Below, in pieces: positions 12,729-28,818 of a stretch of 35,220 nucleotides of DNA. The stretch is taken from positions 1-35,220 of the forward strand of contig VXQZ01000005.1 of NCBI GenBank assembly GCA_009838735.1, written 5' to 3'. The translations under genes were made by a program, and so were the position numbers. The notes under the pieces are model-generated. The model made no database searches, had not been told where the DNA came from, and saw nothing but the letters and a program-made list of their open reading frames with translations. This DNA is from Chloroflexota bacterium (GTDB lineage Bacteria > Chloroflexota > Dehalococcoidia > Bin125). The first letter of the stretch is position 1; each line of letters starts with the position of its first letter.

Positions 12729-13778
12729 TTAGTCAGCGACGGCAGCGAGCTGGGGCTGCGGTGCGAGCGGATGACCGACCGCCTCACCGACCCGCTCGAG
12801 TGAGCGCATCAGAGAATCGAAGTTCTCCAGTGTCAGCGACTGCGGACCATCGGAGAGTGCGTGGTCGGGGTTGGGGTGAACCTCAACCATCAACCCGTCG
12901 GCGCCGACCGCCATCGAGGCACGGGCCATCGGATCGACCAGGTACCAGTGACCGGTGCCATGAGCCGGATCACTGACGATCGGCAAGTGGCTGAGCCGCT
13001 TGACCACCGGGATGGCCGAGAGGTCGAGCGTGTTACGGGTGGCAGTCTCGAAGGTGCGGATGCCGCGTTCGCAAAGGATGACGTCGCGGTTGCCCTTGGC
13101 CATGATGTACTCCGCGGCGAGCAACCACTCATCGATCGTTGCGGAGAGGCCGCGCTTGAGCATCACCGGCTTACGAGCCAGACCAACCTCGTCAAGCAGC
13201 ATGAAGTTCTGCATGTTGCGGGTGCCGATCTGGAGGATGTCGGCGTAGCGTGCGACGAGCTCGACGTCGCGAGCTTCCATCACCTCGGTGATGACCGGTA
13301 GACCCGTTGCCTCGCGGGCAGCGGCAAGGTGCTGCAGACCTTCTTCGCCCAGACCGCGGAACGCGTACGGCGACGTGCGAGGCTTGAACGCGCCGCCGCG
13401 CAAGATCTGCGCGCCCGATGCCGCAACGGCCCTGGCCGTTGTGACCATATGCTCCTCGTTCTCGATCGAACAGGGGCCGGCCATGACGACCATGGTCCCG
13501 TCGCCGATCTTGACGCCGCCGACATCGATGACGGTGTCTTCCTTCTGGAACTCTCTCCCGGTGAGCTTGTACGGACGCGAGATCGCGATGACCTCGTCGA
13601 CGCCGCTCATCCGACCCATCTGCGCGCGGATGTCGGGATCGCCAATGACTCCGACGGCGCCGATTACGACGCGTTCCTTGCCCGGGGACAGGTGGCCCTC
13701 GAGATTGAATTCCTTCAGTCGCGCGAGCACGCCGCGAACTTCTTCGTCGGTCGCGCCCATTCTCATGACAATCAGCAT
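12729..13778 (-). CDS. aroF: 3-deoxy-7-phosphoheptulonate (DAHP) synthase, type Ibeta
   Basis: The 349-residue enzyme joins phosphoenolpyruvate and erythrose 4-phosphate, the first committed step to all aromatic amino acids. Residues 1-70 ([14 protein letters not shown] to RPYKL) form the ferredoxin-like regulatory domain typical of Thermotoga-style type Ibeta enzymes, where it carries tyrosine feedback. The barrel shows [62 protein letters not shown] and [17 protein letters not shown]. These cover the metal-binding Cys, His, Glu and Asp. GAAGGTG six bases before ATG is a fair ribosome-binding site. It is the last gene of the minus-strand aromatic cluster, 16 bases after aroH. Confidence 0.94.
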
Positions 13779-13794
13779 GTCGTCACCTTCTCGC

Positions 13795-14259
13795 TCACTC
13801 GCTGTACGGTTCGGGATCTCCCCTGAATTGTCTCAGGAAATCGCCGACCGAACTTGATGATTCTGTGTTAACCGTTAAGTCTGTTCGCAACTCTCTAGCG
13901 CCGCGCAGATAGATGTGCTGGACCTGGTTCTGCCGGAGCGGGGTGTTGACATGCAACAGAATCCGCAAGCAGGACGGTAACGAGCCAGGCACCTGCATCT
14001 CGTGCCCGCACATCAGGGCGGCGTGACTCCACTTGAATGTGAGGCGCGCCGCCACCGCGGGGAACTCGGCGTTCAGGTCAGGAGTGGTCGTAAACCACAC
14101 CGAAGCCACTTCGCTCGATTCGATGTCGTTGGCGACGATCATCTCTGCGAGCAATTCCTCGGTCGCTTCGATGATGTCGGCGCGCGTGTTGGCTTCAACG
14201 GTTGTCGCACCGCGAATGCCGCGCAAGCGCCAGACAGGCTCGGAATCAGATGTGGCCAT
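13795..14259 (-). CDS. aroH: Chorismate mutase, AroH class
   Basis: The 154-residue product is a monofunctional trimeric chorismate mutase that makes prephenate for tyrosine and phenylalanine. Family motifs are [13 protein letters not shown] near residue 12-24 (active-site Arg), [20 protein letters not shown] near 88-107 (active-site Glu and Arg), and [15 protein letters not shown] near 118-132 (Tyr and Arg). A C-terminal extension of about 20 residues is rich in Ser and Asp/Glu and is unremarkable. The frame is open for about 20 codons upstream but has no good alternative start, so ATG 14259 is used. Position between trpA and aroF fits a shared aromatic operon. Confidence 0.93.
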
Positions 14260-14261
14260 CG

Positions 14262-14439
14262 TCAGGTGTTCAGTCGTTCCCAGCGGGTCGGCGTGGGGGT
14301 GGTCAGAGTTGCAGCGGTGCGATCAGCGATTCGACGAATCTCGTCGGCACGCGATCTAGCGACCGGCCTCAAAGATGCCGGCCGCGGAGATATAGACGCA
14401 GTCAACGAACATTGGAACCGTCCGGGTTCGGTCGCTCAT
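14262..14439 (-). pseudogene. Small ORF between trpA and aroH, apparently broken by one frameshift
   Basis: ATG 14439 overlaps the trpA TGA (ATGA) and encodes 27 residues (MSDRTRTVPM... to FEAGR) before TAG at 14356-14358. Directly across that stop, the adjacent frame reads on in good codon use as RADEIRRIADRTAATLTTPT and ends at TGA 14264-14262, two bases before the aroH ATG. Joined by a one-base shift, the two halves would be a peptide of about 57 residues that fills the gap exactly with operon-style junctions. I do not recognise it. It may be a pseudogene, a programmed frameshift, a base-call error, or simply spacer. Confidence 0.3.
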
Positions 14440-15311
14440 GTGGCTGTCTCTTCACTCCGGCGGCCAGTGACCACCTCGAGGTAGTGTTCGACGGCAGCCG
14501 CCCTGGCCCCGTCGGGCGCCGACGCAATCGTTGCGGTCAGCGCTGAACCGATGATAGCAGCGGGTACCAAATTGCCGACCTGTTCGACGTGTTCTCGCCG
14601 ACTGATGCCGAATCCGACTGCCAACGGCGTGTCAGTCAGCATGCTGACACGTGAGACGAATGCCTCAAAGTCGCGTGCCACCTCATCGCGCGCTCCGGTC
14701 ACGCCGGTCAGCGAGACGAGATAGATGAAGCCGGCGGCCCGCTCGGCCACGGCCGCGATTCGCTTCTCGGTCGAGGTTGGCGCCAGCAGGTAGATCAGTG
14801 CGATGCCGTGGTTGGCAAGCACTTCGCGTGCCGCGTCCGATTCGTCGACGGGCAGATCGACGACGATGATCCCGTCGACCCCGGCCTCGGCAGCTCTCCG
14901 CGCGAGCGGTTCCAGTGGCTGGGCGAGTGCATCGCCGGGGTCCGCTTCGCTGGATGGTGTCGACGACCCATACGAGAGAAACGGGTTGAGATAGCCCATC
15001 AAGGTGACAGGGACATCGGGGTCCGTCTGCCGTGCGACTCGGCAGGCCTCGAGCGCAGTTTCAATCGTGGCGCCGGCATTGAGCGCCACCGTGTAGGCGT
15101 CCTGATGCACCGGACCATCGGCCAGCGGGTCGGAAAACGGGACGCCGATCTCGAAACCGCCAGCGCCTCCACGGAGAGCGGCACGGACCAGATCGGGTGT
15201 TTCCTGCGGCGTGGGAAAGCCGGCGGTCAGAAACGGGAAGACGAGCGGACCATCGCCCCGCCCGCTGGAGGCTGCAAACGCTTCGCGAAACCGGGCTCCG
15301 AGTTCAGACAT
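14436..15311 (-). CDS. trpA: Tryptophan synthase alpha subunit
   Basis: The 291-residue alpha subunit cleaves indole-3-glycerol phosphate to indole and glyceraldehyde 3-phosphate, and passes indole to TrpB. It shows PFLTAGFPTPQET near residue 25, GGFEIGVPFSDPLADGPVHQ with catalytic Glu and Asp (near 51-70), and LMGYLNPFLSYG. A VDGIIVVDLP, LAPTST and VGFGISRREHVEQV follow. It is slightly longer than the usual 265-270 because of an insert after FLSYG (SSTPSSEADPGDAL) in the alpha loop 6 region that contacts the beta subunit. Unusually, a CPBP protease gene, not trpB, precedes it directly (9 bases). Confidence 0.95.
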   Translation of the reverse strand: MSELGARFREAFAASSGRGDGPLVFPFLTAGFPTPQETPDLVRAALRGGAGGFEIGVPFSDPLADGPVHQDAYTVALNAGATIETALEACRVARQTDPDVPVTLMGYLNPFLSYGSSTPSSEADPGDALAQPLEPLARRAAEAGVDGIIVVDLPVDESDAAREVLANHGIALIYLLAPTSTEKRIAAVAERAAGFIYLVSLTGVTGARDEVARDFEAFVSRVSMLTDTPLAVGFGISRREHVEQVGNLVPAAIIGSALTATIASAPDGARAAAVEHYLEVVTGRRSEETAT

Positions 15312-15320
15312 GCCGATCTC

Positions 15321-16076
15321 TCATCCAAGCTGTTGTACCAGCGTCGCCGAGAATCCGATTACGTTGAAGCCAAAGTGAGCGATTGAGGCGGCAGTGAGCG
15401 ATTCAGTGCGGATGTACACGATCCCCAGGACGACGCCGGCGATGGCGAAGGGGATCAAACTGCCCAGATCGGCATGTAGCGCCGAGAAGACTGCCGCTGA
15501 GACGACGAATGCCGGAATCATGCCCCAGTGCGGCCGGAGCCCACCGAGGACGAAGCCGCGCGCGAAGGCCTCCTCGTAGATCGGCGCGCAGACGATCACC
15601 AGGATCCCCAATGCGACCACGACCGATGTGTGAATGAAGAGGCGATCGTCGTCGATCGTCGATTGCGGTTCCAACGACTCGAGACCGGCGGCGGTGATGA
15701 TCGCCGTGTAGGCATACAACACGGCGTAGATCGCGAGCAGGCCACCGATCGCCCACGCGATGTCGGACCCACCCGGGCGCCGCCACGAGATGAGGCGCGA
15801 TTGATTCCTGCGGCGCAAGATCAACTTGGGCAGAATGAACCAGCCGAGGATGCCCGCGGCTCCCTGGCCAATCACGAACACCAACAGTCCCGTCTCGCTG
15901 GCTGCTTCGTCGGCCTCATCGATCGCGGCCACCAGGGCGCCGGTGATCAGTAGCACGACCAACCAGGCCAGCGTGCAGATCAGGCCCCAGCCGACCAGTT
16001 TGAAGCCCTCGAGGCCGCGGTCTTCAGGTGGTTGCTGTTGCGCCTCGCCGGACTCAGCGCCCTGAGACTGCGTCAC
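15321..16076 (-). CDS. CPBP family intramembrane glutamic protease
   Basis: A 251-residue membrane protein of the CAAX protease/bacteriocin-processing (CPBP, ABI) family. A hydrophilic head rich in Gln and Glu (1-25) is followed by about six to seven membrane segments. The family's active-site motifs are intact: EEAFARGFVLGGL near residue 168-180 (EExxxR), FSALHAD near 200-206 (FxxxH) and a final HFGFNVIGF (HxxxN-like). Members cut substrates inside the membrane; most bacterial ones have unknown targets. The GTG start lies two bases after the trpB stop and the gene ends nine bases before trpA, so it is cotranscribed with, and splits, the trpB-trpA pair. Confidence 0.87.
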   Translation of the reverse strand: MTQSQGAESGEAQQQPPEDRGLEGFKLVGWGLICTLAWLVVLLITGALVAAIDEADEAASETGLLVFVIGQGAAGILGWFILPKLILRRRNQSRLISWRRPGGSDIAWAIGGLLAIYAVLYAYTAIITAAGLESLEPQSTIDDDRLFIHTSVVVALGILVIVCAPIYEEAFARGFVLGGLRPHWGMIPAFVVSAAVFSALHADLGSLIPFAIAGVVLGIVYIRTESLTAASIAHFGFNVIGFSATLVQQLG

Positions 16077-16078
16077 AA

Positions 16079-17260
16079 CTAGCGCTCTCGCGCGGCCAGC
16101 GCGTCCCTGACGATCTCGACATCTTTGTCGCCTCGACCGGACAGACCGATCAGGATGGTTTCTTCAGGCTGCATGGTGGGTGCGATTTTGGTGGCGTAGG
16201 CGATCGCGTGGGCGGTTTCGAGAGCGGGGATGATGCCCTCGGTCTCGGACAGGAGCTTGAGGCCATCGAGCGCTTCGTCGTCGGTGACCGAGACGTACTC
16301 TGCGCGTTCCGTCAGCATCAGCCAGGCGTGTTCGGGTCCGACGCCGGGGTAGTCGAGACCGGCGGAGATCGAATGCGCCTCGGTGATCTGGCCGTGCTCA
16401 TCCTGGAGGACGTAGGTTCGCGTCCCGTGCAGGACTCCGGGTGAGCCGGCGGACAGCGTTGCCGCGTGTCGGGCCTCGAGTCCTTCGCCGGCCGCTTCGA
16501 CGCCGATCAGGCGGACCGGATCGTCGATCAGCGGGTGGAACAGCCCGATTGCATTGCTGCCGCCGCCAACGCACGCAACGGCAACGTCGGGCAGCTTGCC
16601 GATTTTCTGCTGCAACTGTTCCCTGGCTTCTCGGCCGATGCAGGACTGCAGCTCGCGCACGATCACCGGATACGGGTGCGGACCGATCGCGCTGCCGATC
16701 AGATAGTGGGTCGTGCGCACATTGGTCACCCAGTCCCGAATCGACTCGTTGATCGCGTCCTTGAGGGTGCGCGCTCCCGACTTGACCGGGACAACCTTCG
16801 CTCCAAGCAGTCCCATGCGGAAGACGTTCAGTGCCTGGCGACGTACGTCTTCCTCGCCCATGTAGACGATGCACTCGATGCCGAATCTGGCGCAGGCTGT
16901 GGCTGTAGCGACTCCGTGCTGCCCGGCTCCGGTCTCGGCGATGATTCTCGGCTTGCCCATCCTCCGAGCGAGTAGCACCTGCCCCAACGCATTGTTGATC
17001 TTGTGTGCGCCGGTATGGGCCAGGTCCTCCCGCTTGAGCCAGATCTGCGCGCCGCCGAGCTGTTCCGAGAGTCGTTCTGCATGGGTCAATGGCGTTTCGC
17101 GGCCGACGTAGTCGCGCAACAAACCGTCGAGCTCGGCGCGGAACTCCGCGTCAGCCTGCGCTTGAGTCCAGGCCTCTTCCAACTCGGCCAGCGCGGGCAT
17201 CAGGGTTTCCGGCGCGAACTGCCCGCCGAAGGGTCCGAAGGCTCCAGTCTCTCTCGTCAC
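16079..17260 (-). CDS. trpB: Tryptophan synthase beta subunit
   Basis: The 393-residue PLP enzyme condenses indole with serine to tryptophan. The N-terminus [19 protein letters not shown] is classic TrpB1. HTGAHKINN supplies the PLP lysine (Lys87), KREDLAHTG precedes it, [12 protein letters not shown] and the phosphate loop [14 protein letters not shown] follow, and the C-terminus has [13 protein letters not shown] start at GTG 17260, which overlaps the trpF stop (GTGA). The frame is open 33 codons further upstream, but those residues are only antisense of trpF coding and unlike TrpB. The length is normal. Confidence 0.95.
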
Positions 17261-17940
17261 GACACATCCTCCGCTTTCGCCGCGGCGACAAACGCCCGGA
17301 TTTTCTCTCGGTCCTTGGTTCCGTCGGTTTCCAGGCCGGACGATGCATCGACAGCCCACGGCCGCACGGCGCGTACCGCTTGCGCCACGTTGTCGGGGTT
17401 GAGCCCTCCGGCCAGCACCAGCGGACGGTTCGAGGCCACTTCGGCTGCGATCGACCAGTCGATGCGTTGGCCCATTCCACCGCCCTGCTTCGACCTCGCG
17501 TCGAGCATGGTGATCGTTTTCGGGGCGCGATCGACCTCTCGGAGTACCGCTCCCGCGTCCATGCCGTCGGCCACGTGGACGACGCGAACGACTGCACGAC
17601 GGATTCTCGAAGCGAGGGCCGGATGCTCTCCTCCGCTGAGCTGGACCAGGTCGAGGTCGACCTGATCCAGCACCCGTTCGATTTCGTCAACCGACTGCCC
17701 GGCGAACACGCCAACCAGGAGGGGCTGATTGGCCGCATGGCGCTCGCGCTCTACGGCTTCCGTTGTCACTTCTGCAATCTCGACCCGAGGACCCAACTCG
17801 CGGCGAACGGCGCGCGCAACCTTGAGGTCGATCCGCCTAGGTGCGTCGGCGAAGATCATGCCGATCTCATCGGCTCCGGCCTCGCGCGCCCAGACGGCGT
17901 GTTCGACGGCTCGCACGGAACAGACCTTGACGAACGTCAT
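17257..17940 (-). CDS. trpF: Phosphoribosylanthranilate isomerase
   Basis: The 227-residue TIM-barrel enzyme isomerises phosphoribosyl anthranilate. The N-terminal VKVCSVR holds the catalytic Cys7-type residue, and [17 protein letters not shown] holds the catalytic Asp. [34 protein letters not shown] and AVDASSGLE are the usual strand-end motifs. The sequence is more divergent than other genes in the cluster: KVCSVR where most have KICG, and FADAPRRI where most have F...SPR. It is joined by four-base overlaps to trpC upstream (ATGA) and trpB downstream (GTGA). Confidence 0.9.
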
Positions 17941-18722
17941 CGTCCTAACAGCTCTCGCGCTTTGGCGTGCGGGTCGGCGGCAGTCGATAGGGCCTCGCCG
18001 ATCAGGACCGCGTTGACGCCGCAGGCTTCCATCCGCTTCATGTCCTCGCGGGTGCGTACGCCGCTGGCTGCCACGACGGGAATCGAAGCGGGGATCGTGT
18101 GTCTCAGCCGCTCCGTCGTGCCCAGATCCTCCGCGAAGGTGTGCAGGTTGCGATTGTTGATACCGATCGCGGCTGCGCCGGCTTTCAGCGCCATTTCAGC
18201 TTCCGCTTCGTCGGTGACTTCAACGAAGGCCGTCAGGCCGTACTGCTCGCCGGCCCTGGCCAACTCGGTGAGCTGGGCGCCATCGAGCGTCTTGGCGATC
18301 AGCAGGTAGGCATCGGCTCCCAGGGCTGCTGCTTCGGCGACCTGGTAGGGGTCGACGTGGAACTCCTTGCGCAAAACGGGTAAGCCGCTGCCCTGAAGGG
18401 CGGTGACCGCATCGCACAGATCGTTGTCGGTGGCAAAGAATGCCGGCGCGGTCAGGACGGAGACAGCGACCGCCCCGATGTCGCAGTAGGTTCGCGCCAG
18501 GTCGGCGGGGACCAGGTCGGGGGCGAACAGTCCCTTGGACGGTGAACCTCGTTTGATCTCCGCCATCAGGCCGACTCCGGGTAGATTGAGCGCTGCCACA
18601 AAGTCATTTCGCTCAGTTCGAGCATGCACGCGCCGCTCCAGCTCTGCGAGAGGCGCTGTATCCTTGCGCTCCTCCACGGCTTCACGGGTTTCGTTGACGA
18701 TGCGCTCGAGGACGGATGACAT
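17937..18722 (-). CDS. trpC: Indole-3-glycerol phosphate synthase
   Basis: The 261-residue enzyme closes the indole ring. Motifs seen in order are the N-terminal helix with ERIVNETREAVEERK, MAEIKRGSPSKGLF (catalytic Lys and phosphate loop) near residue 53-66, VSVLTAPAFFATD, VLRKEFHVDPYQV, ADAYLLIAKTL, TAFVEVTDEAEAEMAL, IGINNRNLHTF and VAASGVRTREDMKRM. VLIGEALSTAADP comes near the end. It lies 12 bases after trpD and overlaps trpF by four bases, in a standard trp operon order. The protein is full length with no unusual substitutions in the active site. Confidence 0.95.
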   Translation of the reverse strand: MSSVLERIVNETREAVEERKDTAPLAELERRVHARTERNDFVAALNLPGVGLMAEIKRGSPSKGLFAPDLVPADLARTYCDIGAVAVSVLTAPAFFATDNDLCDAVTALQGSGLPVLRKEFHVDPYQVAEAAALGADAYLLIAKTLDGAQLTELARAGEQYGLTAFVEVTDEAEAEMALKAGAAAIGINNRNLHTFAEDLGTTERLRHTIPASIPVVAASGVRTREDMKRMEACGVNAVLIGEALSTAADPHAKARELLGR

Positions 18723-18734
18723 TATGTCAACTCT

Positions 18735-19779
18735 TTACGCTTCGGTTTTACCCGCGATAGCGCGTGACCGCTCGACGAACAGTTCCAGCTTACGCAGCGC
18801 GCGCTGATCGTCGATGCATTCGGCCGCACGGCTGACGCCTTCGGCGAACGTCGGAACTTCTTCTGCCGCCAACAACCCGGCGGCCGCATTGAGCGTGACG
18901 AATCCCGTGAGTGCTGACGTTTTGCCGCCGAGAACGTCGCGCATCATCGACGCAGACTCTTCGGCGGTCTGACCGCCGCGGACGGCGGAGAGCGGTACGG
19001 GGCGGATCTCGAAGTCGCCGGGTGAGACGGTGAATTCGATCAGCTCTTCACCATCAACCTGCCAGCAGGTGGTCTCACCCTCAGGGGAGACTTCGTCCAG
19101 GCCTTCTTGTCCGTGGACGACCAGTCCGCGGCGAACGCCCAGACGGCCTAGCGCTGTCGCCATCAGCAGACCCAGTTCGGGACGCGCGACGCCGATCAGT
19201 TGATGGGTTGCTCTGGCGGGATTCGTTAGCGGACCGAGGATGTTGAACACCGTTCGCACGCCGATGCGGCGTCGAATCGGGGCAACGAAGCGCATCGCGG
19301 GATGGAAGGCCTGGGCGAAGAGGAATCCGAATCCGACTTCACGGATGAGCGCGGCCGCCTGTTCGGGATTGACGCTGATCTGACCGCCAAGGGCCTCGAG
19401 CACATCGGCGCTACCGACGCTTGAGGACATCGCGCGGTTGCCGTGCTTAGCGACCGGAACACCGCAGCCGGCCATGACGAACGCGGCGGCGGTTGACGAG
19501 TTGAACGCGTGTGTTCCCGAGCCTCCGGTGCCGGCAGTGTCGGCGAGGCGCGGCAGATCCGAGAGGTGGACGGGCAGCGCGTGCTCCCGCATTGCGCGGG
19601 CCAGGCCGACGACCTCATCGACCGATTCGCCCTTCATCCTGAGGCCGGTGAGCAGGGCGGACGCCTGGATTTCATCGGCGTCGCCCGACATCAACGCGTC
19701 CATTGCGGCCGATGCTTCCACGTCGCTGAGGCTGCGACGTTCGTCGACCACAGCGGCAAGCGCCGCTCCGAGGTCGGGG

Positions 19780-19787
<8 letters not shown>
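18735..19787 (-). CDS. trpD: Anthranilate phosphoribosyltransferase
   Basis: The 350-residue enzyme adds phosphoribose from PRPP to anthranilate. It shows an N-terminal helical domain with [49 protein letters not shown], the metal motif [14 protein letters not shown] and NAAAGL near the C-terminus. The PRPP loop reads [19 protein letters not shown] where most TrpD have GTGGDG with TFNIST, so Asp to Ser is a notable change. The surrounding residues are kept and the enzyme is probably active. The GTG start 19787 overlaps trpG by eight bases. Confidence 0.92.
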
Positions 19788-20377
<590 letters not shown>

Positions 20378-20388
<11 letters not shown>

Positions 20389-21193
20389 GGTCGCCCTCTT
20401 CCTGTGACTTCCGTTCGCGGAGTATGCGCCGCAGCGTGCGGAAACCTTCGACGGCGCGCGGGAATCCGCAGTAGGGAGCGGCAGTGGCCATGACGCCTTC
20501 GAGTTCTGTTTCGGTGACGCCGTGATTGAGCGCGCCGGGGATGTGGAACTGGAGCTCCTCGGTCTTGTTGAGCGCGACCAGGATCGACACGACTACCAGC
20601 GAACGATCGCGGCGCGACAGTTGCGAGCGCGACCAGAGGTCGCCGAAGGCGAACTCGAAGGCAAGCTTGCCGACCGGTCCGATTCTCTCCATGCCGGCCA
20701 GCGCTTCAGCGGGATCCTGGGCCTCTTCCTGGCCGTTGAGCGTCCGCATTATGTCGACGGCGTCGCGGTGGCGCTGGTCGTCGTCCTTGTATTCGGCCGG
20801 AGGTATCCGGTACGGCTTGCCGTCGGCCTTGGTCCATGCTTCGACGAGGACGTTGATCATCTCGTTGCCGGCGGGGAAGCCGGAGTAACCGGCGATTTGC
20901 AGCGCGATCTCGGTCATTTCTTCGCGAGTTATGCCATTGGCCGGCGCGAAGCTGGCGTGGAACTGGACTGCTTGCAGGCGTTCCAGCGCGCCGAGCATGG
21001 CCAACGCGACGATGTTGCGGTCGCGGCGCGACAGTTCATCGCCTTGCCAGACCTGGCCGAAGATGTAGTCAACCACGAAGCTGCCGAACGCTCCGGTGCG
21101 CTGCTCGGCGGCCGAGGCGAAGCCAACCGGCTGGCCGGTCATCGCGGCCAATAACTCACTGCCGGCCTTGCGTCGTTCTGCGTGAGTCGCCAT
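20378..21193 (-). CDS. Two-domain carboxymuconolactone decarboxylase-like protein
   Basis: A 271-residue protein made of two CMD-like all-helical domains (about residues 25-115 and 180-262). Each carries the marker SRRDR followed by a helix and a later GFP segment ([29 protein letters not shown]; then [28 protein letters not shown]). The AhpD CxxC redox pair is absent, so this is not an AhpD-type peroxidase. I start at ATG 21193 ([11 protein letters not shown]), preceded by GAGGAACTGAG; an upstream ATG at 21241 would add 16 unconserved residues. It is a close paralogue of the C-terminal part of the next-upstream gene. The role in the trp operon is unknown. Confidence 0.75.
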
Positions 21194-21256
21194 CTCAGTT
21201 CCTCGTTCCTTCAATCCTTCAAGTGGTGCGTTGGCGCGCATTCTCGGTAGGCAACC

Positions 21257-22522
21257 TCAATCGCGGAGCCGCTGCAGGATGAGTCCGGCGTCTGAAGCGC
21301 GCGGCAATCCGCAGAACGCGGATGCGATCGCAATTGTGCCGTCGAGTTCATCCCAGCTACATCCGAACCGGTGAGCCGTGGACAGCGCATCCTCCAACTG
21401 CTGTGTCCGGCCGATCGCGATGTGCATGGCGAGAACGATCAGCGCGCGGTCGCGCTTCGCGAGTACGTCGCTTGTCCATATCTCGCCCAGGTTCCAGTCG
21501 ATCATCAGACGTCCGACCGAGCCAAACTGCGCCTGCATGTCCTGGGCGATCTGCCGTTCGTCGGTTGGACGATCAGTCAGGAGTTGCCAGACGGCCACGG
21601 CGCTGCGTCGGCGTTGCCCATCGTCTTTGCCCTCAGCTGGCTCAGGCTGGTACTCGTACCCCGACTCCGCCCAGTCCGACAGCACTCGAGTCAGCGCCAG
21701 ATTGGCGAATGGGAAGCCACACTCAACGGCAAGCTGCAGGCACACTTCCACAATCTCGTCGCGGTTGAGTCCGTTGCGTAGTCCGATCGAGGCGTTGAAG
21801 GCAAACCCGTCGACCTGCATCAGGGCGCCGGCCGCCGCCATGGCGGCGAGACTGCGATCGCGTCGCGAAAGCAGACCGTCCTGCCAGATGTCGCCCCAGA
21901 TGTGATCCACGAGGTACGACCCGAGCGGCCCCATCCGCGTCTCAATGGTCTGGGCAAACTGGTTCTGGCCCGTGAGTTCGGCGAGGATCGCATCGCCGGC
22001 TGCCCGACGGTCTGCGTGTGTTCGAGTCGGAATCGAAGCCAGGGGAGGCGCTTTGGGCTCGGCGAACAGATCGTCGAGGGTCGAGTCGGCTTCGAAGTCC
22101 CAGCCTGAAGCGCGGCGTTCGAACACTGTCGAGAGCAACTCGGCTTGCTGCTCGGGCAGTTCAGCGACGGCTGACGTCACTTCCCACCATTCCATGGCGT
22201 CGAACGGGTTGGTTTCGTCATCAGGTGCGCCGTCGAGCGCTTCCTCGACCATGACGACGTAGGCGTTGTGGACCGTGTGCCTGCCAGTGGCCGGCTCTTC
22301 GCCGTAGACCGTGTGCGCATAGCCGGCGCGAACGCGTTGGCGCAGCAGGTGCTCGAAGATGCGCGGCACCGTGTCGTCCGGCTCTTCGGACAGCGGGGTA
22401 GTGTCGCCGGGCAGCCACCAATGTCCGGGCCAGAGGGCCTCATCGGCGCGTCGGCGAAGCAGGAGCACGCGTCCGGCCTCGTCGAAGACGACGCCGTAGC
22501 CAATGATCAGGGACTCCGGCAT
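21257..22522 (-). CDS. Degenerate Nudix domain fused to two CMD-like domains
   Basis: The 421-residue protein starts with a Nudix-like fold (about 1-130): IIGYGVVFDEAGRVLLLRRR, then WPGHWWLPGDTT and HNAYVVMVEE. The Nudix box that should read Gx5Ex7REUxEExGU is GDTTPLSEEPDDTVPRIFEH here; the REUxEE catalytic glutamates are not in place, so hydrolysis is unlikely. Residues 165-421 repeat the two-domain CMD architecture of the neighbouring gene, with HADRRAAGDAILAELTGQ, SRRDRSLAAMAAAGAL and GFPFANLAL, then KRDRALIVLAMHIAI and CGLPRA. ATG 22522 shares a base with the trpE stop (TGATG). I infer a ligand-sensing or scaffold role, perhaps paired with the shorter paralogue. Confidence 0.7.
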   Translation of the reverse strand: MPESLIIGYGVVFDEAGRVLLLRRRADEALWPGHWWLPGDTTPLSEEPDDTVPRIFEHLLRQRVRAGYAHTVYGEEPATGRHTVHNAYVVMVEEALDGAPDDETNPFDAMEWWEVTSAVAELPEQQAELLSTVFERRASGWDFEADSTLDDLFAEPKAPPLASIPTRTHADRRAAGDAILAELTGQNQFAQTIETRMGPLGSYLVDHIWGDIWQDGLLSRRDRSLAAMAAAGALMQVDGFAFNASIGLRNGLNRDEIVEVCLQLAVECGFPFANLALTRVLSDWAESGYEYQPEPAEGKDDGQRRRSAVAVWQLLTDRPTDERQIAQDMQAQFGSVGRLMIDWNLGEIWTSDVLAKRDRALIVLAMHIAIGRTQQLEDALSTAHRFGCSWDELDGTIAIASAFCGLPRASDAGLILQRLRD

Positions 22523-24030
22523 CAGTAGCCCCGCGACCCACCGGTGACGGCTCCGGCGCGAGAGCGCTCCTCCGCCAGGTCGAGCGCGGTGAACATGCCC
22601 ATCGCCTTGTTCACCGTCTCTTCGAACTCGTCATTCAGCTTCGAATCGAAGACGATCCCGCCGCCGGCCTGCACCGAGGCGACACCGTCCTGCATGATGA
22701 TCGTGCGGATCGTGATGGCTGTTTCCATGTTGCCACCGAATCCGAAGTATCCCAGTGCGCCCGCGTAGGGGCCGCGTTGGTCCTGTTCGAGCTCGGAAAT
22801 GATCTCCATCGCGCGGATCTTGGGCGCTCCGGAGACGGTGCCTGCCGGGAACGTCGCGCGCACCGCGTCGAACGACGTTGCGCCTTCGGCCAGATCGCCT
22901 TCGACGTGCGAGACGAGGTGCATGACGTGGCTGTAGCGCTCGACATCGAGCTCCTGGGTGACGCGCACGGTGCCGGGCCTGGCGACGCGGCCGATGTCGT
23001 TGCGGCCCAGGTCAAGCAGCATGACGTGCTCGGCCACTTCCTTCTCGTCGGCGCGGAGTTCCGCTTCCAGGGCTCGGTCTTCGTCTTCGTCCAATCCTCT
23101 GCGGCGGGTGCCGGCGATCGGGTGAGTCGAGACCTTGCCATCCTCGACGATCACAAGCAGCTCGGGTGAGGTGCCGACGATCTGGTGGTCGTCCATCTCG
23201 AGGTAGTAGGTGTAGGGCGACGGATTCACGGTGCGCAAGGTGCGGTAGACGTTGAAGGGATGGACGAAGGTGTCGCGCGAGAACCGCTGCGAATAGACGC
23301 ACTGGATGATGTCTCCGGCGACGACGTAGTCGATGATCTGCTTGACGTCGGAGAAATAGGCCTCGCGCTCCATATTGGAGCGGATGGCGACAGAGTGGCC
23401 GGACGGCTCGGGCGCGTCGACGGGAGGGATGGGCGGTCCAGACTGCAGACGCTCGACCAGTTCGTCAATCCGGAACTCGGCGGCGCGATAGGCGGACTCG
23501 ATGTCCCCATCCAGTCGAACGTGAGAGACGACTTTGATCACGTGTTTCAGGTGATCGAACAGCAGGACCGTGTCGACGAATTGAAACAACGCCTCGGGCA
23601 GACCGTGCGGGTCGTAACCGGCGGGCTCGACGCGCGGCTCAAAGTGGCGGATCGCCTCGTAGCTGAGATAACCGACTGCGCCGCCGTGAAACGGCGGCAG
23701 ATCGGGGTTGGGTACCAGGTCGAATCGGTCCAGCTCGGCTTCGACCTCATGCAATGGGTCGACCGCGCCGCCGGATGGGGCGCGGAGGATTCGGTACGGC
23801 TCGGTGCCGATGAAGGAGTAGCGGCTGGGCCGCTCGCCGCCTTCCACCGATTCGAGCAGGAACGAGTATGCACCGCGCTTGACCTTGAGGAAGGCGGACA
23901 CGGGCGTTTCGAGATCGGCCAGGACTTCTCGGTAAACGGCGGCGTAGTTGCCGCGGCCAGATGCCCTGGATTCGGCGGCCAACTGCTTGAATTGATCGAG
24001 ACTGGGGCTGAGTGTGCCGGTCAACGGCAT
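22522..24030 (-). CDS. trpE: Anthranilate synthase component I
   Basis: The 502-residue enzyme turns chorismate into anthranilate with TrpG. The N-terminal regulatory domain has the tryptophan-binding element SFLLES (56-61) and RYSFIGTEP, so feedback inhibition by Trp is expected. The chorismate-binding core has GTSPELLVIVEDGKVSTHP, IAGTRRRG, AEHVMLLDLGRNDIGRV, GAPKIRAMEIISELE and GPYAGALGYFGFGGNMETAI. I start at ATG 24030, with a strong AAGGAG (24040-24045) nine bases before it. The frame is open back to ATG 24180, but those 50 residues are proline/arginine-rich and lie in the leader RNA. This is the first gene after the trp promoter. Confidence 0.94.
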   Translation of the reverse strand: MPLTGTLSPSLDQFKQLAAESRASGRGNYAAVYREVLADLETPVSAFLKVKRGAYSFLLESVEGGERPSRYSFIGTEPYRILRAPSGGAVDPLHEVEAELDRFDLVPNPDLPPFHGGAVGYLSYEAIRHFEPRVEPAGYDPHGLPEALFQFVDTVLLFDHLKHVIKVVSHVRLDGDIESAYRAAEFRIDELVERLQSGPPIPPVDAPEPSGHSVAIRSNMEREAYFSDVKQIIDYVVAGDIIQCVYSQRFSRDTFVHPFNVYRTLRTVNPSPYTYYLEMDDHQIVGTSPELLVIVEDGKVSTHPIAGTRRRGLDEDEDRALEAELRADEKEVAEHVMLLDLGRNDIGRVARPGTVRVTQELDVERYSHVMHLVSHVEGDLAEGATSFDAVRATFPAGTVSGAPKIRAMEIISELEQDQRGPYAGALGYFGFGGNMETAITIRTIIMQDGVASVQAGGGIVFDSKLNDEFEETVNKAMGMFTALDLAEERSRAGAVTGGSRGY

Positions 24031-24216
24031 GGGAACAGGCTCCTTGGGATCGGGGGTGCGCTCAACAGTCGAGTCAGCCACCCCGGGGCGTGGCGAGTTA
24101 ACTCTCGCTTCGCCAGACCCCCTGCCCGCCGGACGTGTGGCAATGCGCGGACGGACGCGTGTGAGAATCCACCACACCATCGATCATCGTCGCCGACATT
24201 GCGCACTTCCGTTCCT
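24031..24216 (-). promoter_or_regulatory. Putative trp leader/attenuator upstream of trpE
   Basis: The expected transcript start is near 24216. About 36 nt in, ATG-GTG-TGG-TGG (24180-24169) gives tandem Trp codons in a frame reading MVWWILTRVR. GTGTGG (24177-24172), which includes the first TGG, can pair with CCACAC (24140-24135), while GTGTG alone can pair with the nearer CACAC (24163-24159); these exclude each other. Downstream are TGGCGA/TCGCCA (24115-24091) and GGGGTG/CACCCC (24084-24053), the latter competing with GCCACGCCCC and ending just before the AAGGAG of trpE. There is no T-run, so control may act on translation or through Rho. No stop separates the MVWW frame from trpE. Confidence 0.45.
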
Positions 24217-24222
24217 GAGAGA

Positions 24223-24250
24223 AGCCTACGCCAACGTCGGCCGATGTCAA
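24223..24250 (-). promoter_or_regulatory. Sigma70-like promoter for trpE operon
   Basis: On the minus strand a perfect -35 TTGACA (24250-24245) is followed by 16 bases and a -10 TAGGCT (24228-24223, matching TAnnnT). It lies in the 240-base gap between the gmk stop (24270) and trpE, which is the only sizeable gap in the minus-strand cluster. Transcription would begin near 24216. Confidence 0.55.
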
Positions 24251-28741: not shown

Positions 28742-28818
28742 CCCCCCGTAGCTCAACCGGACAGAGCGACGGACTTCTAATCCGTAGGCTGGAGGTTCGA
28801 GTCCTCCCGGGGGGACCA
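28742..28818 (+). tRNA. tRNA-Arg (anticodon UCU)
   Basis: A 77-nt cloverleaf with perfect acceptor pairing CCCCCCG/CGGGGGG, D-arm GCTC/GAGC, anticodon arm ACGGA-CTTCTAA-TCCGT (anticodon TCT), five-base variable loop, T-arm GGAGG-TTCGAGT-CCTCC, discriminator A and encoded CCA at 28816-28818. The gene begins at the base after the preceding stop codon, so the mRNA and tRNA are probably separated by RNase P cleavage. Confidence 0.93.

Follow-up and report, generated by a model that had tools for sequence, protein, structure and literature searches.

The question raised by this locus is how the tryptophan operon of a Chloroflexota bacterium could be adjusted to the supply of tryptophan, and in particular which reading frame and which RNA structures in the trpE leader would do the sensing. 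A sequence-only reading of the window (the whole 35,220-nucleotide stretch analysed here, contig C52 of a 3.15 Mb genome that is 96.6% complete) had proposed an attenuator with two tandem Trp codons behind an ATG at 24180, in a frame open into trpE, with alternative helices that would respond to ribosome stalling. In this study, the leader was compared with those of the other genomes of the genus and of one sister-genus genome, G017 (16 leaders altogether), and its coding capacity, folding and distribution were analysed.

Promoter and operon

The locus is read on the minus strand, and the assigned start of trpE, ATG 24030, agrees with the conserved alignment. The promoter and the genes that it faces are as follows.

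24223 to 24250, minus strand: promoter, with TTGACA at 24250-24245, a 16-nt spacer and TAGGCT at 24228-24223, from the sequence
24040 to 24045, minus strand: Shine-Dalgarno sequence of trpE, AAGGAG, from the sequence, with GGAG conserved in the leader alignment
22522 to 24030, minus strand: trpE, anthranilate synthase component I, starting at ATG 24030 (TIGR00564, 535 bits, above the cut-off)
12729 to 22522, minus strand: remainder of the putative operon, with overlapping or closely spaced ORFs on one strand and family matches

The -35/-10 pair had already been pointed out in the sequence-only reading; it is present and has equivalents in all 16 aligned leaders, with an invariant TTGAC and an invariant TA in the -10 element. 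From this arrangement, the RNA would be expected to start near 24216. Upstream of the promoter, at about 24270, is the end of a guanylate-kinase-like gene. The gene order after trpE is NUDIX/CMD protein, CMD protein, trpG, trpD, trpC, trpF, trpB, Rce1-like, trpA, aroH and aroF, the last two of which, at the operon end, are a chorismate mutase and a DAHP synthase, respectively, according to family matches. The series from trpE to aroF is presumably co-transcribed. Among named records, the sequences nearest to TrpE are from Dehalococcoidia and SAR202, which suggests that the genome belongs to the class Dehalococcoidia of the Chloroflexota. As side observations, two carboxymuconolactone-decarboxylase-like genes, one of them NUDIX-fused, sit between trpE and trpG, and a gene for an Rce1-like membrane protease lies between trpB and trpA. 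The window also contains a tRNA gene at 28742-28815 on the plus strand (RF00005, 72.6 bits).

A conserved leader peptide upstream of trpE

The run ATG-GTG-TGG-TGG at 24180 is present in this genome, but ATGGTGTGGTGG, and even TGGTGG, occurs in none of the 15 relatives. Its frame is indeed open into trpE here (a 552-amino-acid ORF); however, this is not conserved, and the length of the open frame ranges from 508 to 756 amino acids in the genus. A classical tandem-Trp attenuator, or a leader-TrpE fusion, starting from ATG 24180 would have the codons and the open frame of this one genome in its favour, whereas the frame is missing in 15 of 15 relatives and the helices proposed with it are unconserved, so that this explanation is scarcely credible. 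The sequence-only reading had itself set a lack of conserved TGG codons in relatives as the refuting condition, and this applies to the tandem-Trp ORF, which is private to this genome and was rejected as the sensor.

A different frame, overlooked in that reading, is conserved in its place and has its own Shine-Dalgarno-like sequence.

24206 to 24216, minus strand: Shine-Dalgarno region of the leader ORF (AGGAACGGAAG), from the sequence
24199 to 24098, minus strand: leader peptide ORF of 33 codons plus TAA, with start and stop in frame in 16 genomes
24113 to 24115, minus strand: the sole conserved Trp codon, UGG, residue 29, the proposed stall site, invariant in 16 genomes

From ATG 24199 to TAA 24098 this ORF encodes MSATMIDGVVDSHTRPSAHCHTSGGQGVWRSES, in a frame other than that of ATG 24180. 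The GGAAG at 24210-24206 belongs to it, and most of the 16 aligned leaders have GGAG or GGAAG about 6 nt 5' of the start codon of this ORF. The homologous ORFs in the 15 genomes of the genus and in G017 have 32-36 codons, and their stop codons lie 54-81 nt 5' of the trpE start. In the alignment of the 16 peptides, the N-terminal third is variable and is followed by a conserved block, RPSAxCHTSGGQGVW(R/P), the G017 version of which is RLLARHRTSGGEGGW. Conservation stops at W29 and the next residue, which is Arg in 14 genomes and Pro in two; beyond W29, the tail varies in sequence but is constant in length at four residues (five in G017). Only six genomes have an additional, unconserved Trp at codon 5. 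Thus, instead of multiple or tandem Trp codons, the leader ORF has one conserved Trp across the 16 genomes.

The type of variation is that of a coding sequence. Among all 16 genomes, the 16 codons of the block vary at 14 of 16 third positions and at 13 of 32 others (p 0.002), and in the 13 close genomes the corresponding figures are 13/16 and 6/32 (Fisher p 4.6e-5); the tests assume independent columns and take no account of the tree. Since third positions vary while the amino acids do not, the peptide, and not the RNA alone, is under selection. Together, the promoter, the Shine-Dalgarno sequence and the coding-type conservation in 16 genomes fit a putative translated leader ORF upstream of trpE. 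The peptide has no match in Pfam or PDB, and its origin as a fragment of a known protein was rejected on these grounds; HTSGGQG was not found in the papers searched.

RNA structure of the leader

Between the conserved Trp codon and trpE, the leader can fold into two hairpins.

24087 to 24114, minus strand: hairpin H1, with the leader stop codon in its loop; it folds in all 16 leaders (mean z -3.15)
24053 to 24084, minus strand: hairpin H2 (mean z -2.11), which the relatives have with different stem sequences

The 5' arm of H1 begins at the second base of the W29 codon, and H2 ends about 7 nt 5' of the trpE Shine-Dalgarno sequence. Covariation was assessed by permutation among eight sequence types in fixed windows, comparing native with swapped pairings. 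For H1, nine of 40320 permutations were as good as the native pairing, and for H2 the number was 75 of 40320; the latter support uses the fixed-window test alone, as hand-picked H2 arms would be circular. The 2:3 antiterminator helix reached 8125/40320, and the corresponding local hairpin had a mean shuffle z of 0.04, no better than chance. Of a mutually exclusive set, therefore, 1:2 (H1) and 3:4 (H2) are supported and 2:3 is at the level of chance. The covariation and folding suggested as a check in the sequence-only reading thus hold for the arms of H1, which it had not named, and of H2, but not for the 2:3 helix. Among the individual helices that it had listed, GGGGUG with CACCCC is part of the conserved H2, whereas GGGGUG with GCCACGCCCC is the 2:3 pairing; the GUGUGG:CCACAC helix, both arms of which are found in only three of the 16 genomes, was rejected.

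The absence of a T-run terminator was borne out: the minus strand of the leader has no U-run intrinsic terminator, and all 16 sequences are free of U-runs. The predicted pairing of the trpE Shine-Dalgarno sequence was the same at three ribosome positions (0.26, 0.23 and 0.26), and sequestration that varies with ribosome position was accordingly not seen in the predicted folds. With no terminator, no support for 2:3 and constant Shine-Dalgarno pairing, the folds do not explain the step from stall to expression. The trpE leader matches no Rfam family.

Distribution and the relation to T-boxes

The peptide is encoded once per genome, directly upstream of trpE, in 15 of 15 genomes of the genus (g1) and in G017. 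A profile search of 393 Dehalococcoidia and of a 400-genome phylum sample that overlaps them gave no convincing match in the approximately 375 other Dehalococcoidia or in the phylum sample. The best outside matches (E 6e-4 and weaker in the 393-genome search) look like chance matches, and no retrieved one is near trpE; extra copies elsewhere in the class were therefore rejected, and the genome under study likewise has one copy only. TrpE identity to the query is 84% for G017 and 74-77% for T-box-bearing family members, which is consistent with a single origin of the leader peptide in the g1-g4 lineage. In one genome of the comparison (G010, leader L007), the DNA 5' of the trpE leader looks unlike the upstream DNA of the other relatives, so that leader and trpE appear to be one unit.

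This distribution bears on the possibility that the product is a small protein acting in trans, as has been proposed for peTrpL of Sinorhizobium (PMC7298713), with H1 and H2 incidental. The conserved C-terminal half would suit such a protein. However, the ORF is invariably directly 5' of trpE and has no second copy, its conservation ends at the Trp codon where H1 starts and its N-terminal third is variable, all of which make action in trans very improbable.

The relatives use a different device at the same gene. The trpE leaders L018-L021, L027, L030 and L031 match the T-box family RF00230, L018-L021 being from members of the same family, and among these T-box leaders L030 and L018, for example, end in U-runs; trpE T-boxes were previously reported in Dehalococcoides (PMC2494555). 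RF00230 has no match in the window, in L002 or in L017. Genome-wide, T-boxes were found in 13 of 13 scanned relatives that do not have the peptide (G015, G016, G018-G019 and G020-G028) and in 0 of 16 peptide carriers (G000-G014 and G017). With the trpE T-boxes of L018-L021, this agrees with one control having functionally replaced the other at trpE. The leader peptide has probably replaced the T-box of the relatives as the control of the trp operon by tryptophan supply. Neither TRAP (PF02081) nor TrpR (PF01371) has a match in the present genome (G000).

Analogous leaders at leuA and ilvB

Two further leaders in the same genome were compared.

Contig C28 of G000, minus strand: leuA leader L171, upstream of leuA at 61467-62951
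Contig C27 of G000, minus strand: ilvB leader L198, upstream of ilvB at 71586-73241

The leuA genes of the genus have a conserved upstream ORF encoding MKQCVLGGAEPRAVARGVLVA, with the consensus M(K/T)QCVLGG(A/V)EPRAVARGVL(V/G)A before the stop (L170-L180). A TATAGT-like -10 element lies about 7 nt 5' of its ATG, so that this leader ORF may be leaderless; it is accompanied by GC-rich hairpins, the second of which includes the stop codon. The ilvB gene of the genus likewise follows a leader that ends in RVHVAVAGGRAFRA and a stop, with three Val codons; in the conserved ORFs of the ilvB leaders L190-L200, most of which end in VHVAVAGGRAFRA and a stop, the Val codons are followed by a large nested hairpin. 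Neither the leuA nor the ilvB leaders match Rfam. As read from the sequences, the leuA, ilvB and trpE leaders have a similar plan, in which a GC-rich hairpin after the regulatory codons overlaps the stop codon.

Proposed mechanism and alternatives

The explanation that we favour, and consider fairly probable, is that the trp operon is controlled by a ribosome-mediated leader-peptide attenuator, with a stall at one Trp codon, perhaps with help from the nascent chain. Transcription would begin near 24216 and the 33 codons of the leader would be translated. Under a shortage of charged Trp-tRNA, the ribosome would stall at the single Trp codon (24115), where the nascent RPSAxCHTSGGQGV in the exit tunnel would probably sensitise this codon by slowing peptide-bond formation. 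The stalled ribosome would cover the 5' arm of H1, H1 would be blocked and the trp operon would be on. When tryptophan is plentiful, the ribosome would read through to the stop codon within the H1 loop, terminate there and be released; H1 would then fold beside H2, just 5' of the trpE Shine-Dalgarno sequence, and expression would be lowered, most likely via translation initiation, an output favoured by the lack of a U-run terminator. We infer the stall, its dependence on tryptophan, the contribution of the nascent chain and the output step from this arrangement; the direction, on at low and off at high tryptophan, is expected from the biosynthetic role of the operon. The critical ribosome is placed at W29 because conservation ends at W29-(R/P)30, H1 begins there and the tail is constant in length.

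In favour of the attenuator are the presence of the peptide before trpE in 16 of 16 genomes, its coding-type variation, the start of H1 at the Trp codon, the stop codon in the loop, the covariation of H1 and H2, the distribution of T-boxes, the absence of TRAP and TrpR matches in the genome and the similar leaders at leuA and ilvB. Against it stands the single conserved Trp codon; codon-starvation attenuators mostly carry two or more regulatory codons. The missing intrinsic terminator, the unsupported 2:3 helix and a predicted Shine-Dalgarno pairing that is the same at all three ribosome positions also count against it. The data support the general idea of the sequence-only reading, in which trpE is regulated through the translation of Trp codons in its leader, but the sensing ORF would be another one, with one conserved Trp.

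Conservation of the peptide points to a role of the nascent chain, which could sharpen a starvation stall at the single codon or be an arrest peptide in its own right. In the latter case, nascent TSGGQGVW, in the exit tunnel or the peptidyl-transferase centre, would sense tryptophan, either free or as Trp-tRNA at the P or A site, and arrest would occur at W29/R30, similar in kind to TnaC but with another motif and repressing. The approximately 15 conserved residues up to W29 and the following Arg or Pro exceed what codon counting needs, only a single Trp codon is conserved and residue 30 is Arg in 14 genomes and Pro in two, both of which serve poorly as A-site substrates in known arrest peptides. 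However, there is no resemblance to the TnaC motif (Trp12, Asp16, Ile19 and Pro24 before the stop; PMC8429421), and arrest at high tryptophan must repress, opposite to TnaC, so that an arrest peptide proper seems rather unlikely. A broader and tentative proposal, possible but doubtful, is that RPSAxCHTSGGQGVW(R/P) defines a new class of arrest peptide that makes the ribosome Trp-responsive at one codon and controls a trp-aro operon in a T-box-free lineage, with sister leaders at leuA and ilvB on the same plan.

The output could also lie in transcription, if the position of the ribosome set termination by Rho or pausing of RNA polymerase at H1/H2 before trpE. The absence of a U-run terminator would suit such Rho- or structure-dependent attenuation, and there are precedents: Rho has been proposed for the terminator-less cys leaders of Mycobacterium (PMC1262725) and acts at tnaC (PMC8429421). 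Nevertheless, just 54-81 nt separate the leader stop from the trpE start, and this stretch is largely within H2 and is not a C-rich single strand; we regard this output as unlikely.

Comparison with known systems

The trpE leader is an element that probably works like a leader-peptide attenuator, yet it departs from the classical tandem-Trp and U-run features, from the TnaC motif and from the T-box. With the classical trp attenuators (Escherichia coli trpL and the trp leaders of Corynebacterium and Streptomyces; PMC1262725) it shares a promoter, a short ORF with a regulatory Trp codon, a hairpin starting from that codon and a second hairpin before trpE. Those leaders have two or three Trp codons, whereas one is conserved here; furthermore, the present leader has no U-run terminator, its antiterminator is unsupported and the peptide around its Trp codon is conserved. 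The terminator-less actinobacterial leaders (the cys leaders and the LEU element; PMC1262725) are similar in having conserved peptides or in lacking terminators, but their peptides, genes and phylum are different and the leader described here is without an Rfam match.

In comparison with the trpE T-box riboswitch (RF00230), the same gene is regulated in the same class and family, whereas the sequence and structure of the T-box are absent here. If the proposal is correct, trpE in this one family is a case of a translated leader peptide taking over from a tRNA-binding RNA switch, and living relatives represent both states.

TnaC (PMC8429421) is likewise a short peptide with a critical Trp and amino-acid conservation upstream of genes of tryptophan metabolism. 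However, its D16/I19/P24 motif is missing from the 16 peptides, its Trp is 12 residues up the tunnel whereas the present one is five codons before the stop, and its operon is catabolic whereas the present one is biosynthetic and arrest is only proposed. If borne out, a single-Trp leader with conserved amino acids would join the few known natural, metabolically tuned nascent-chain elements.
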